Shown here: piece by piece, positions 1 to 3,930 of the stretch
How positions within the stretch are numbered: the stretch's first letter is position 1
How the letters are laid out: each line of letters begins with the position of its first letter
Assembly: GCA_023132075.1 (NCBI GenBank)
Contig: JAGLYT010000082.1
Coordinates: 1-6,969, forward strand
Source of the DNA: JAGLHV01 sp023132075 [NCBI: bacterium]
Lineage (GTDB): Bacteria; CBDUZB01; JAGLHV01
Direction: 5' to 3'
DNA: 6,969 bases
Position numbers and translations under genes: made by a program
Notes under the pieces: model-generated
Database searches by the model: none
What the model saw: only the letters and a program-made list of their open reading frames with translations
Told to the model about the DNA's origin: nothing

Positions 1-103
1 GCGAAACCTCCTCGATGATGTTTCCATCCTTGTCGGTGATCGCGATCCCGATCCCCGCCTCACCGCGTGTTTCGCCATCCACGTACACGAACAGCTTATT
101 CAT
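1..103 (-). CDS. RNase HI-family protein, N-terminal part only (runs off the window edge)
   Basis: Only the first 34 codons are visible. The protein begins MNKLFVYVDGETRGEAG and continues into GIGIAI and a DKDGN turn. This is the first and second beta strands of the RNase H fold. D9, in the YVDG motif, sits where the first catalytic metal-binding Asp of RNase HI is expected. The usual loop after this motif is longer (a GNPGP-type stretch); here it is shortened to RGEAGIG. Members of the family cleave RNA in RNA-DNA hybrids, but the other catalytic residues lie outside the window, so activity cannot be judged. The ATG at 103-101 is chosen because the DG motif then falls at the family position. 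There is only a weak ribosome-binding site (GCGAG), and the start lies 9 nt after the tRNA 3' end. The first 100 bases are 56% GC, far above the rest of the window, so this gene probably belongs to a different compositional background. Confidence 0.72.
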   Translation of the reverse strand, partial: MNKLFVYVDGETRGEAGIGIAITDKDGNIIEEVS

Positions 104-112
104 ACTCGCAAC

Positions 113-185
113 TGGGCCCACCAGGATTCGAACCTGAGACCATTCCGTTATGAGCGGAAGGCTCTACCAACTGAGCTATAGGCCC
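113..185 (-). tRNA. tRNA with CAT anticodon (elongator Met or lysidine-type Ile2)
   Basis: The 73-nt minus-strand sequence folds as a complete cloverleaf. It has a 7-bp acceptor stem (GGGCCTA with TGGGCCC, one U-G pair), a 4-bp D stem GCTC/GAGC, a 5-bp anticodon stem TTCCG/CGGAA, a 5-nt variable loop, a T stem, a TTCGAAT T loop and discriminator A. CCA is not encoded. The anticodon loop CTCATAA gives CAT. An initiator tRNA is excluded because the first acceptor position is a normal G-C pair and the anticodon stem lacks the GGG/CCC run. The C4-G69 and C5-G68 pairs match known TilS determinants of E. coli tRNA-Ile2, where E. coli elongator Met has U-A and A-U. I therefore lean to Ile2, without certainty. 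The gene starts 7 nt after the stop of the upstream glycosyltransferase. Confidence 0.95.
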
Positions 186-192
186 TTATTTG

Positions 193-438
193 TTATTCAA
201 AAATATATTTTACTTCGCCTTCATTTGCAAAAGGCATATTAAAATTTTTCATCGTATTATTTAATACATTGTCAGGTATAATTTTACCTTCTCTAGAATC
301 ATTTCTAAAAATAATTTCTTCAATAACTGGCAACAAAACAATAAGTTTAACTTCAAATCCATTTTGTCTCAACCGATTAATAAATTTCATTCTACCTTTA
401 TGAGTAAGATTTGTTCTATCAATAACAAAATCTTTCTT
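193..438 (-). other. P-loop kinase C-terminal half (T4 Pnkp-like/AAA_33) fused to the GT39 protein
   Basis: This segment codes for about residues 424-504 of the membrane glycosyltransferase. It reads like the second half of a polynucleotide-kinase-type P-loop kinase. A beta strand ends in DRTNLT (T4 Pnkp has SDTNLNPERR at this place). A helix with G-R-x-x-F-I and a strand FEVKLIV follow. Next come the lid arginines in RNDSREGKIIP (T4 Pnkp: RNSKRGTKAVP), then V-L-x-x-x-M and P-x-x-x-EGE-x-x-YI at the end. The Walker A loop that binds ATP phosphates belongs to the first half of the fold and is absent from this protein. The tail therefore cannot be an active kinase by itself. The join lies in a Lys-rich, low-complexity stretch (INKEKK, about 430-455). 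The segment is about 25% GC, as AT-rich as the rest of the gene. The family match is from memory of motif order, not a search. Confidence 0.7.
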
Positions 439-1707
439 TTCTTTATTTATTTGCATAATAAAATCGAAAATTTCTTTATGTTTCCAATTTTCCCGGCAAG
501 GTGGACGAGATAAACTTAAATGTAGTTTATTAAAAGCTATAATATCAGGAAACACCCCATAACTAAAAAAAATACATTGTAAAAACCCTATTATTATCAC
601 ACCATAAACCACAATCTTCTGCCAAATTTCTTTTTTTAAAGCAGGAATCCAAAAAACAGAAATAATACTAACCGCAGGTAAGAATGGCAATGTATATCTT
701 CCATCTTTATTTCCTATTAAGGTAAAAATAAAATAAGGAACAACTATCCAACCAAGCATTATTATTAAATTATCCCGATTTTGATAATTTGTTTTCCATT
801 CTTTTACTAATTTTATTGTCCCCACTAAAAAAAGAATAAAAAATAAAAATTGTACTTGTTTTTCTAAATTCCAGAAATAAAACAAAAAAGAACTTATTGA
901 TAAAAAATAAGGATCTCCTTCAGCAGCACCTATAGTAGCTGCTTGAAAACAACGTTGAATTATAGGGATTAAATTATACAAATACCACGGAGCAGTAATA
1001 ATAAAAAAAGAAATACCTGCGAATAAAAAATTTTTTATACCTCTTTTATCTATTTCCCTAATTGATTTAAATACAGCAAAAGAAACCGGAAAAAATATAA
1101 AAAACAAATAAGTCCATTTAACCAGCAAACCTATGCCGGAAATTACACCAAAAGCAATTGCATATTTTTTTTCTTTAAAATGCCTACTGCGCAACAAAAA
1201 ATATATTCCCCAGGTCACTACCGTAGTAAGAGGAATATCCAAAAGCGGAAAACGAGACATATAAATTATACTCTGATACATTGAGACTAAAAAAGCCGAC
1301 AACAATCCTACTTTACGGCAATAAAGAAAACTTCCCAACTTATAAACTCCCACAATTAAAAAAGCAAAATAAACAACCACACTCATTGTTGCCCAATCAG
1401 CAGAAATACCGAATAAAAGGTGCACCGGCACTAAAGAAAGATGAAAAAAAGGAGGATAATAATACGACACCCTTATCAAATTTAAAATTAAATCCCTTGT
1501 GGGATGAAGTAACAATTCTAAATAACGCAAACTTAAACAGAGATGTGCAGACTCATCCCAGGCAGGAGGACAGGTATCCAGGAATAACCATATAGCATTA
1601 TTTATTAGATGAAATAAAATAAGCCCGCTCAAAAATAAATAATCAAAAACCACTCTTTTCTTTTGTGTTATGTCATCTATATGTTTTTTTAAATTAATCT
1701 TATACAT
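193..1707 (-). CDS. GT39/ArnT-PMT-like membrane glycosyltransferase with a kinase-like C-terminal tail
   Basis: The product is 504 residues. Residues about 20-390 form a GT-C type polytopic membrane protein with roughly ten hydrophobic segments. Family features are the Asp-Glu pair D51-E52 in the first outside loop (PPAWDE), YYPPFFH at 83-89, the SRFPLLDIP stretch at 151-159, KWTY at 197-200, and GNKDGRYTLPF at 332-342. Such enzymes move a sugar from a polyprenyl-phosphate carrier to lipid A, polymer or protein on the outer face of the inner membrane. RPPCRENWK (401-409) also looks like this family. From about residue 424 the sequence changes character. DRTNLT at 430-435, RNDSREGKIIP at 468-478, and a final F-x-x-P then EGE pattern match the C-terminal half of T4-Pnkp-like/AAA_33 kinases (see the separate entry). 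The ATG is 4 nt after the zinc-ribbon gene's stop. A GGAGG lies 18 nt upstream and a weaker AGAAG 9 nt upstream, so coupled translation is likely. The stop is 7 nt before the tRNA. The membrane part is confident, the acceptor is unknown. Confidence 0.85.
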   Translation of the reverse strand: MYKINLKKHIDDITQKKRVVFDYLFLSGLILFHLINNAIWLFLDTCPPAWDESAHLCLSLRYLELLLHPTRDLILNLIRVSYYYPPFFHLSLVPVHLLFGISADWATMSVVVYFAFLIVGVYKLGSFLYCRKVGLLSAFLVSMYQSIIYMSRFPLLDIPLTTVVTWGIYFLLRSRHFKEKKYAIAFGVISGIGLLVKWTYLFFIFFPVSFAVFKSIREIDKRGIKNFLFAGISFFIITAPWYLYNLIPIIQRCFQAATIGAAEGDPYFLSISSFLFYFWNLEKQVQFLFFILFLVGTIKLVKEWKTNYQNRDNLIIMLGWIVVPYFIFTLIGNKDGRYTLPFLPAVSIISVFWIPALKKEIWQKIVVYGVIIIGFLQCIFFSYGVFPDIIAFNKLHLSLSRPPCRENWKHKEIFDFIMQINKEKKDFVIDRTNLTHKGRMKFINRLRQNGFEVKLIVLLPVIEEIIFRNDSREGKIIPDNVLNNTMKNFNMPFANEGEVKYIFE

Positions 1708-1711
1708 TGCT

Positions 1712-1867
1712 TTATTCTTCTGCTTCCTCCACTAACATTATAGGTATTCCATCCCTAATCGGATATTTCCTTCCACATCCAAGACATATAATTTTCTCGT
1801 TTTTTAATTCCACGCTTTTTTTACATGCCGGACAGGCTAAAATTTCCAGCAACTCTTTATCAATCAT
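1712..1867 (-). CDS. Trm112/YcaR (UPF0434)-like small zinc-ribbon protein
   Basis: The product is a 51-residue protein beginning MIDKELLEILACPACKK. It has two CxxC knuckles, C12-C15 and C28-C31, followed by the family-typical YPIRDGIPIML. It is a Trm112-type zinc ribbon. In eukaryotes and archaea Trm112 stabilises methyltransferases. In bacteria the related YcaR is encoded between the lipopolysaccharide genes lpxK and kdsB in E. coli, so a polysaccharide setting is familiar. The open frame extends 11 codons upstream to an ATG at 1900. I chose the ATG at 1867-1865 because GGGAGGG ends 4 nt before it and because family members start with MI/MxxxLLxILACP. Unlike many proteobacterial members, all four cysteines are kept, so zinc binding is likely. 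No methyltransferase partner is encoded in the window. It lies between the fused GT2-GT4 gene and the GT39-like gene and is almost certainly co-transcribed with them. Confidence 0.88.
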   Translation of the reverse strand: MIDKELLEILACPACKKSVELKNEKIICLGCGRKYPIRDGIPIMLVEEAEE

Positions 1868-1871
1868 TTTT

Positions 1872-1878
1872 CCCTCCC
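1872..1878 (-). promoter_or_regulatory. Strong Shine-Dalgarno that fixes the zinc-ribbon start
   Basis: The minus strand reads GGGAGGG, then AAAA, then ATG (1867-1865). The upstream in-frame ATG at 1900 has only an A-rich GTAAGTTAAAAGA before it. This decides in favour of the 51-residue product. Confidence 0.8.
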
Positions 1879-1917
1879 AATCATTTATAAACTTATTCAT
1901 TCTTTTAACTTACAATT

Positions 1918-3930
1918 TTATGCCGTTTCCTCATATATTTTACACATTTGATAAGCTGTTTTTTCCCAGGAAAAAAACTTTGCTTGTTTAATCCCTTCCT
2001 CAATCATTTTTTCTTTAAGAACATTATTTGACAAAACTTCATACATAGCACCGGTTAAACCATCAATATCGTTAGGATCAACCATAATACCTGCTTTTCC
2101 AACCACCTCCGGCAAAGAAGCAACGTTGGAACTAATCACCGGCACACCACAAACCATTGCCTCCAAAGGGGGAATACCAAATCCTTCATAAAAAGACGGA
2201 AAAACAAACAAATCAGCTGCGTTATAAAACAAAGGTAATTCGCTTGCAGAAATATACCCGGTAAAAATCACCTCTTTTTCTATATTTAATTCTTTCACCA
2301 GATTATATATTTGAGGATAACGAGGATCTCTTTTTCCTACAATGACTAAGCAGCAATCCACCTGTTTATTTTTTTGTAAATTAGCAAAAGCATGAATTAA
2401 TCCGGCAATATTTTTAGAAGGGTCCTGCCTGCCAACATAAAGAATACGTTTTTTATTAGGCAAAGAATACGTCAAATTACATTCTTTACGAGGATAAAAT
2501 TCATTCCCCACTCCAACATAAACCATTTCCGTCTTTTTACCAAAACCAGGAAACGCCTGTACAATATCACGACAAGTTGCTTTAGAACAAGCAACTATTT
2601 TATCTGCTCTCTTTAAAATTAAACCAAAGATAACTTTATAAAGCAAATAGTATTTTGTTGTTTTCTTTAACGGACAAAGATGTGGATAAAGATACGGAAT
2701 CAAGTCATAAACATTAATAACCGTCCTGTATCCAAAAGATAATAACGGAATTGTAGAAAACGGTAAATGCAAAATAGCAACTTTTTTCCGCCACAAAAAT
2801 ACCGGAAGCCTTATATAATTTTTCCAGGAAGTTAAATTATAAGGAATTAAATGAAAAGAAAAATTTTTTTGGGAACTCAATTTACACTTCGCATCGATTT
2901 CTTTTCTTAAATCACTTTTATCAATCAATAAAAGATACTCATTGTGAATATCAATTTTTGATAAATTTTCTACCAAATTTAAAATGTATTGTCTAATTCC
3001 TCCTGTATCAACAGTAATCCAACGCATATCAATAGCAATATGTAAAACTCTCCTTCCTAACCGTTTACAATAATAATCAGATAATGCCTGAAAAACACAA
3101 CTCCAGTTTTTCCCTTTTATCATTAAAAATAATAAATTCTTCACTATAACAAAAGGAAAAATGAAAAATAGAAAAAACCAACGACCAAACCATTGTGCAT
3201 GTTTTTGTAACAATAATAAACGATTACGAATACCATAATAAATACTGGAAACTGAAAATTTTCCAAGGCTGGAAGATATTTTATGCCATACTTTTGCCTG
3301 AGGAACAAACATTAATTGATAACCAGCTTTTATTGCACGAAGAGACCAATCGATGTCTTCATAATAAAGAAAAAATCTATCATCCAATAATCCAATTTTT
3401 TCTATTACTTCCCTTTTTACTAAAAGAGCACAACCGGTAATATAATCACTCTGTTTAACTTTCTCTAATTTCCCTCTATCAACAAAACCATTGCTAATAT
3501 GGACAGGACGCCACCATCGAATTTTTCCACCCCCAAACCAAATCTTATCCGGCTTATCTTGATAATAAATTTTTGGACCGACCATCCCTATTTTTTCATC
3601 ACTTTCAACAACCTTGATCAATTCTTTTAATAAAGAACCTTCTACAGTAGTATCGTTATTTAATAATAAAACATAATCCGCCCCAAAATTCAAGGCATAT
3701 CTTATTCCAACATTATTACCTTCAGCAAAACCCAAGTTATCATCATTTATAATTAATTTTACACCAGGATAGCTTTCCTTAATTAAACAAGCCTCATTGC
3801 CATCCTCAGAACCGTTCTCTACCACCAAAATTTCAAACGGAGAATAATCCAGTTTATCCAATGATTTTAAACATTCCAAAGTATCATGAATACCATTCCA
3901 ATTTAAAATAACAATATAAACTTTTTTCAT
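1918..3930 (-). CDS. Fused GT2-GT4 glycosyltransferase (two catalytic domains in one chain)
   Basis: The product is 670 residues in one uninterrupted frame. Residues 1-294 are a full GT-A fold GT2 of the rhamnosyltransferase (WbbL/RfbF-like) type. It shows NWNG at 10-13, VVENGS at 36-41, the metal/nucleotide motif NND at 91-93, TGCALLVKR at 165-173, and the acceptor-side motif FFLYYEDIDW at 186-195. A hydrophobic, membrane-associating stretch lies at about 250-272. Residues about 295-670 are a full GT-B fold GT4. It begins LHIAIDMRW, with GGI at 310-312, the donor-phosphate motif GRQDPSKN at 500-507 (R501, K506), and EGFGIPPLE at 582-590, the E-x7-E motif. Both halves have normal single-gene lengths and keep their key residues, so both are probably active and add two successive sugars to a lipid-linked oligosaccharide in the cytoplasm. 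The sugars cannot be read from the sequence. The ATG at 3930 follows AGGA with 7-8 nt spacing. A loss of the stop between two adjacent genes is the simplest origin. Confidence 0.93.
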   Translation of the reverse strand: MKKVYIVILNWNGIHDTLECLKSLDKLDYSPFEILVVENGSEDGNEACLIKESYPGVKLIINDDNLGFAEGNNVGIRYALNFGADYVLLLNNDTTVEGSLLKELIKVVESDEKIGMVGPKIYYQDKPDKIWFGGGKIRWWRPVHISNGFVDRGKLEKVKQSDYITGCALLVKREVIEKIGLLDDRFFLYYEDIDWSLRAIKAGYQLMFVPQAKVWHKISSSLGKFSVSSIYYGIRNRLLLLQKHAQWFGRWFFLFFIFPFVIVKNLLFLMIKGKNWSCVFQALSDYYCKRLGRRVLHIAIDMRWITVDTGGIRQYILNLVENLSKIDIHNEYLLLIDKSDLRKEIDAKCKLSSQKNFSFHLIPYNLTSWKNYIRLPVFLWRKKVAILHLPFSTIPLLSFGYRTVINVYDLIPYLYPHLCPLKKTTKYYLLYKVIFGLILKRADKIVACSKATCRDIVQAFPGFGKKTEMVYVGVGNEFYPRKECNLTYSLPNKKRILYVGRQDPSKNIAGLIHAFANLQKNKQVDCCLVIVGKRDPRYPQIYNLVKELNIEKEVIFTGYISASELPLFYNAADLFVFPSFYEGFGIPPLEAMVCGVPVISSNVASLPEVVGKAGIMVDPNDIDGLTGAMYEVLSNNVLKEKMIEEGIKQAKFFSWEKTAYQMCKIYEETA
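3048..3055 (-). promoter_or_regulatory. Shine-Dalgarno-like AAGGAGAG at the GT2/GT4 joint
   Basis: The minus strand reads AAGGAGAG exactly where the GT2 domain ends (CKRLGRR) and the GT4 domain begins (LHIAIDMRW). The in-frame codon at normal spacing (8 nt) is ATT at 3039-3037. The first in-frame ATG (M302, 3027-3025) is 20 nt away. It may be a relic of a former GT4 ribosome-binding site or allow weak internal initiation. A chance purine run coding for GRR cannot be excluded. Confidence 0.4.

Follow-up and report, generated by a model that had tools for sequence, protein, structure and literature searches.

The window, a stretch of 6,969 nucleotides, is the entire contig C371 of a bin of 389 contigs (1.87 Mb, 86.7% complete). 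Its ORF at 193–1707 on the minus strand encodes 504 aa and ends at a natural stop codon, in keeping with the preliminary description, which had called the joined frame open and had taken it for a glycosyltransferase ending in the second half of a kinase. The features at this end of the contig are as follows:

2–103, minus strand: start of rnhA, 34 codons, running to the contig end (a match of its own over 2–103; same source as 78–141; in the rnhA frame of G481, a genome of another phylum)
113–185, minus strand: hybrid tRNA gene with anticodon CAT (ARAGORN and alignment); nt 45–73 (113–141) are identical to G481, and nt 1–44 (142–185) diverge from it
141/142, no strand: join B, the border of an exact match to G481 of 64 bases (window 78–141; alignment)
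193–420, minus strand: the 3' end, most likely, of an HD-kinase gene of phage type, comprising the kinase second half and the stop codon (AAA_33, phrog_6931, phrog_505 and the viral contig L141)
418–423, no strand: join A, between codons I429 and D430, the last base common to both congeners being 420 (congener alignments and blastn)
421–1707, minus strand: codons 1–429 of a PMT/GT39-like glycosyltransferase native to the window's genus (Pfam, two congeners and blastn)

The body of the ORF is GT39-like, as had been proposed. It matches the Pfam families PMT (PF02366, E 2.1e-9) and PMT_2 (PF13231, E 8e-9) with 37.8 bits against a curated cut-off of 22.7 and 36.3 bits against 26.1, respectively, and both are also matched by 430–1707 alone. 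Orthologues are found in two congeneric genomes, not four, as L010 and L032 look like one record and L011 and L033 like another. The gene is complete in L032, where it encodes 762 aa with 87% protein identity over residues 1–438 (tblastn), and the L033 record begins inside the gene at a contig end, with 81% identity over residues 222–438 (tblastn). At the DNA level, blastn gave 85.7% identity between window 420–2208 and L032, and 85.9% between window 420–1042 and L033. The proteins are alike over residues 1–429, but the native C-terminal part of the congeneric enzymes, about 330 residues, is missing from the window contig. A GT2-like gene (named from sequence) comes after the glycosyltransferase in both congeners, and in L032 the intact gene is also followed by further glycan genes. 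Neither the native C-terminus nor an orthologue of the GT2-like gene was found in the window's own bin, where the best matches to the latter were 30–32% identical; with bin completeness at 87%, both may lie on an unbinned contig.

The polysaccharide genes around the glycosyltransferase have some features of their own. Its native C-terminal part in L032 (6285–7286) weakly resembles an LmeA-like phospholipid-binding domain (PF11209, E 0.017, below the cut-off), and the O-antigen-ligase-like gene at L032 5–1164 is present as two overlapping ORFs (5–520 and 517–1164), possibly owing to a frameshift in the record. In the window, a 670-aa ORF at 1918–3930 on the minus strand has a glycosyltransferase of GT2 type and one of GT4 type in the same frame, and L032 has two GT4-like genes here. 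The DNA similarity to L032 (420–2208) ends within the GT4 part, with protein identity over the whole GT4 just 36%. This border at about 2208 has the look of a cassette boundary within a variable polysaccharide locus, or else of another join.

At the other end of the shared segment, whole-window blastn alignments against L032 and against L033 both end at base 420, and protein likeness is gone after residue 429. The window reads KKDFVI-DRTNLTH at this point, compared with KKDFVI-ARVLANH in L032 and KKNLII-ARVFVNH in L033. Of the kinase segment originally placed at 193–480, the part from 193 to about 420 stands; positions 421–480 are, by comparison with the congeners, still glycosyltransferase, which extends to I429 (codon 421–423). 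The pattern KDFVIDRTN was found, among 386 genomes, in the window itself only, and a degenerate FVIDRTNLT pattern gave two matches in the viral contigs, both on one non-kinase sequence.

The identification of the ORF end as the second half of an AAA_33 kinase was borne out. In the whole ORF, AAA_33 (PF13671) matched residues 414–489 over profile positions 60–140 of 143 (E 1.1e-5, 26.2 bits, just below the curated cut-off of 27), and the last 104 residues alone scored 30.4 bits (E 5.4e-7), above that cut-off. The motifs DRTNLT, GRMKFI, RNDSREGKIIP and EGEVKYIF follow one another in order. The ATP-binding first half is missing, again as described: the AAA_33 profile is unmatched before position 60, and glycosyltransferase sequence occupies the place of the Walker A (P-loop) half, so the fusion is not a kinase. 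Matches to the T4 polynucleotide kinase structure 1ly1 (E 0.77 only) and to NCBIfam kinase families (best E 0.015) were weak. In PHROGs, the tail matched phrog_6931 (E 5.3e-10) and phrog_505, 'polynucleotide kinase' (E 1.2e-6). The former was matched at the profile end only, at 263–332 of 343, and the combination of an HD domain with a complete kinase domain was not found; the tail is most likely a fragment of a phrog_6931-type gene.

A scan of viral contigs with the lid pattern returned five stretches, three of them with kinases (two with the same protein) and two by chance, and only one was close: the viral contig IMGVR_UViG_3300033146_001659 (L141). Over 78 columns, the tail and the L141 kinase are 64% identical, so the kinase likeness of the tail is more than chance, and the 388-aa frame of L141 includes the kinase first half, preceded by an HD domain. 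Relatives of the L141 protein were present in 66 phage records (51 from Campylobacter phages), all below 60% identity and 53 of them at 80% or more of its length; the record of Campylobacter phage CP220 has an HD domain and a P-loop annotated in one protein. Of these phage HD-kinases (phrog_6931; L141, CP220), the window tail preserves the latter half of the AAA_33 kinase domain; the HD domain, the half with Walker A and some 300 residues at the N-terminus are absent. On these likenesses, the tail most likely represents the 3' end of a gene from a phage. Searches for the source phage were negative, both with peptide words of the tail in the viral contigs and by tblastn in phages, and a scan for relatives of the L141 kinase returned its own contig only. 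An exact 27-mer of the tail had no match in the viral contigs, so the word common to both sources at join A is one that we infer. No tRNA gene was found beside the related kinase gene in L141 (5970 bases), and none is listed in the CP220 and RM378 stretches. Near the HD-kinase gene, L141 183–4692 carries ORFs that by eye resemble a nucleotidyltransferase, a metallophosphoesterase and an HNH-type endonuclease, and is perhaps an RNA-repair region.

Relatives with the same fusion, which the preliminary description had envisaged, did not appear: of 193 genomes, only the window's own contained the 78-residue tail. This genome has 19 AAA_33 matches, that of the window included. The orphan 5' kinase half that had also been envisaged was not among the seven stronger of the 18 others; all seven look like ordinary P-loop genes, which from their sequence we take to be shikimate kinase, MiaA, CoaE, Cmk, a GspE-like ATPase, Lon and RarA.

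The tRNA gene starts seven bases past the kinase stop codon, and G+C is 24% in 186–429 compared with 55–56% in 1–185. DNA identity over window 1–185 is 88% to G481, 85% to G480 and 81% to G482, all in another phylum; 32 of 100 genomes of that phylum match window 1–430, with G481 the best. The rnhA start reads MNKLFVYVDGKTRGESGEAGIGIAITDKDGNIIEEVSR in G481 and MNKLFVYVDGETRGEAGIGIAITDKDGNIIEEVS in the window, and in two loci of one genus of this phylum (L048 and L049) a tRNA(CAU) stands directly before rnhA. At E ≤ 0.05, the 34-residue rnhA start had matches in 25 of 290 genomes; these included the window's own but neither congener. A search for RVT_3 was negative in 3 of 3 genomes of the window's genus, a result of little weight alone, as the search overlooks even the 34-codon piece of the window and its control was positive in 8 of 14. 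At about window position 74–75, within rnhA and next to a repeated CGGTGAG, the window is without nine bases of G481, either through a natural in-frame deletion or through collapse of a repeat in assembly.

Compared with G481, the tRNA differs at 12 of 44 positions in its 5' part and at 0 of 29 in its 3' part (Fisher p 0.002, an optimistic value since the border was placed after seeing the alignment). Nucleotides 1–44 show 11 mismatches and a gap against each of G481, G480 and G482, and in this 5' part 2 of 43 positions distinguish G481 from G480 and from G482. The last 24 bases of the tRNA are exact also in G003 (L065), from another family, and are for that reason a word common to lineages; shared words are branching points of assembly graphs. 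An exact 29-mer of the tRNA 5' half had no match in the viral contigs, and no phage tRNA was found there. The window tRNA was 60–62% identical to Met tRNAs found in the genus, a weak comparison in that those may be another tRNA(CAU) type; it took in the other tRNA places of three genomes (13 of 13 of G000, 13 of 13 of G001 and 32 of 35 of G002).

Broader searches with this end of the contig mostly returned the tRNA. Window 1–192 had a match in 49 of 60 genomes, in almost every case owing to the tRNA, with no match in G001 and a weak one in G002. By blastn, 37 plasmid and 194 phage records matched window 1–430, and the best 20 of each cover the tRNA stretch only. Across 17 loci of G481's phylum the tail had no match of note (one 12-residue match, E 4.5), and five loci of that phylum obtained with longer flanks had no AT-rich sequence before the tRNA (in L136, fewer than 400 bases lie there).

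Three different affinities therefore meet at two sharp borders: the window's genus above 420, phage-like sequence in 193–420 and another phylum in 1–141. Judging from sequence, we consider the last ~420 of the 6,969 bases to be an assembly chimera of three sources in a metagenome contig, with a probability of roughly 0.85, the joins having probably arisen in assembly and not in a cell. The assembly path would leave the glycosyltransferase gene at a short common sequence near GATTTTGTTATTG, which the phage gene would share, run along the HD-kinase gene of a phage, past the stop codon and into an adjoining tRNA gene, whose 5' half would come with the phage DNA, and exit at the conserved tRNA 3' half into the tRNA–rnhA locus of a bacterium from a different phylum. 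Join A would yield the in-frame 'fusion protein' as a by-product, and in the organism the glycosyltransferase would run on into its own C-terminal domain, as in the sister species.

An assembly join is favoured because host genus, phage and other phylum meet within 430 bases at a contig end, a pattern that one cellular event would not readily give and that two joins at short common sequences would. The same reading is favoured because the congeners part from the window at base 420, the L032 gene being intact, and because the native C-terminus and the next-gene orthologue are not found in the bin. It draws further support from the tail, which is confined to one of 193 genomes and belongs to a phage family whose viral member, at 64% identity, has both the first half and the HD domain, and from the foreign part at the contig end, with its shift in G+C, its other-phylum match in 1–185 and its unevenly diverged tRNA. 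Some points count against an assembly chimera. The searches brought up no source phage and no tRNA beside the related kinase genes of L141, CP220 and RM378; the reading frame is kept across join A, for which the chance is about one in three; G+C of the L141 kinase gene is 35.9%, not 24%; join B was chosen with the alignment in view, which makes its Fisher p optimistic; and inter-organism chimeras are rare according to Chen et al. 2020 (PMC7111523). As in the chimeric metagenome scaffolds treated there, different organisms lie on either side of a join, as seen here by phylogenetic profile and composition, but the window differs in bringing together three sources within 430 bases.

The preliminary description had left the choice between a real chimera and an assembly join. 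The latter fits; the former is unsupported, given the other C-terminus of the congeners, the restriction of the tail to a single genome, its phage-like character and the other-phylum DNA into which the contig apparently passes within a tRNA gene, and the same evidence leaves the suggested kinase-derived fold outside the membrane, serving another purpose, without support. That the species' glycosyltransferase was broken in the cell and joined to a phage kinase end, with the fused protein made, is very unlikely. Phage DNA can insert into polysaccharide loci, and the open frame with its natural stop and the microhomology-like border at FVI would suit such an event; however, it requires a further event, different in kind, only 280 bases away in DNA from a third source, the gene is intact in the congeners and no relative among the genomes searched has the fusion. 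Among the papers listed in a literature search, none was, by title and opening lines of the abstract, about a fusion of a glycosyltransferase with a polynucleotide kinase. The tail as an ordinary domain, carried by GT39-like enzymes of this kind, has a negligible probability and is refuted within the genomes searched: both close orthologues continue with unrelated sequence, and in the 14 of 193 genomes that match the whole protein, all matches except the window's own end at residue 443 or before.

Join B could instead be natural and only join A an artefact, if a phage-like element had integrated at the tRNA gene of the bacterium from the other phylum and had brought along a tRNA 5' part of its own; the kinase end, hybrid tRNA and rnhA would then be one true molecule and only the glycosyltransferase would be misjoined. 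Where an element has integrated at a tRNA, the border takes the form of a hybrid tRNA whose 3' part is shared exactly, and the window appears to contain such a tRNA. We nevertheless regard this as unlikely, since G+C goes from 24% to 55% within 200 bases, the five loci with longer flanks from that phylum have neither a notable tail match nor an AT-rich flank before the tRNA, and no integrase is visible in the short stretch. It is extremely unlikely that the whole is one real molecule, in which a phage-like element at one phylum's tRNA–rnhA locus captured the low-G+C polysaccharide cluster of another phylum and fused the glycosyltransferase to its own kinase at the capture border; if true, this would be gene capture between phyla by a phage-like element.

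With an assembly chimera as the preferred reading, the gene is most plausibly an ordinary glycosyltransferase that a contig error has truncated at codon 429, and 'glycosyltransferase plus half a kinase' is probably not a real new protein. A chimera can be strongly suspected without reads where, as here, orthologues part at one base and the contig end passes through a hybrid tRNA into another phylum. The case is a warning that an assembler can produce, where a contig of a bin ends, a 'domain fusion' that is clean, open and in frame.
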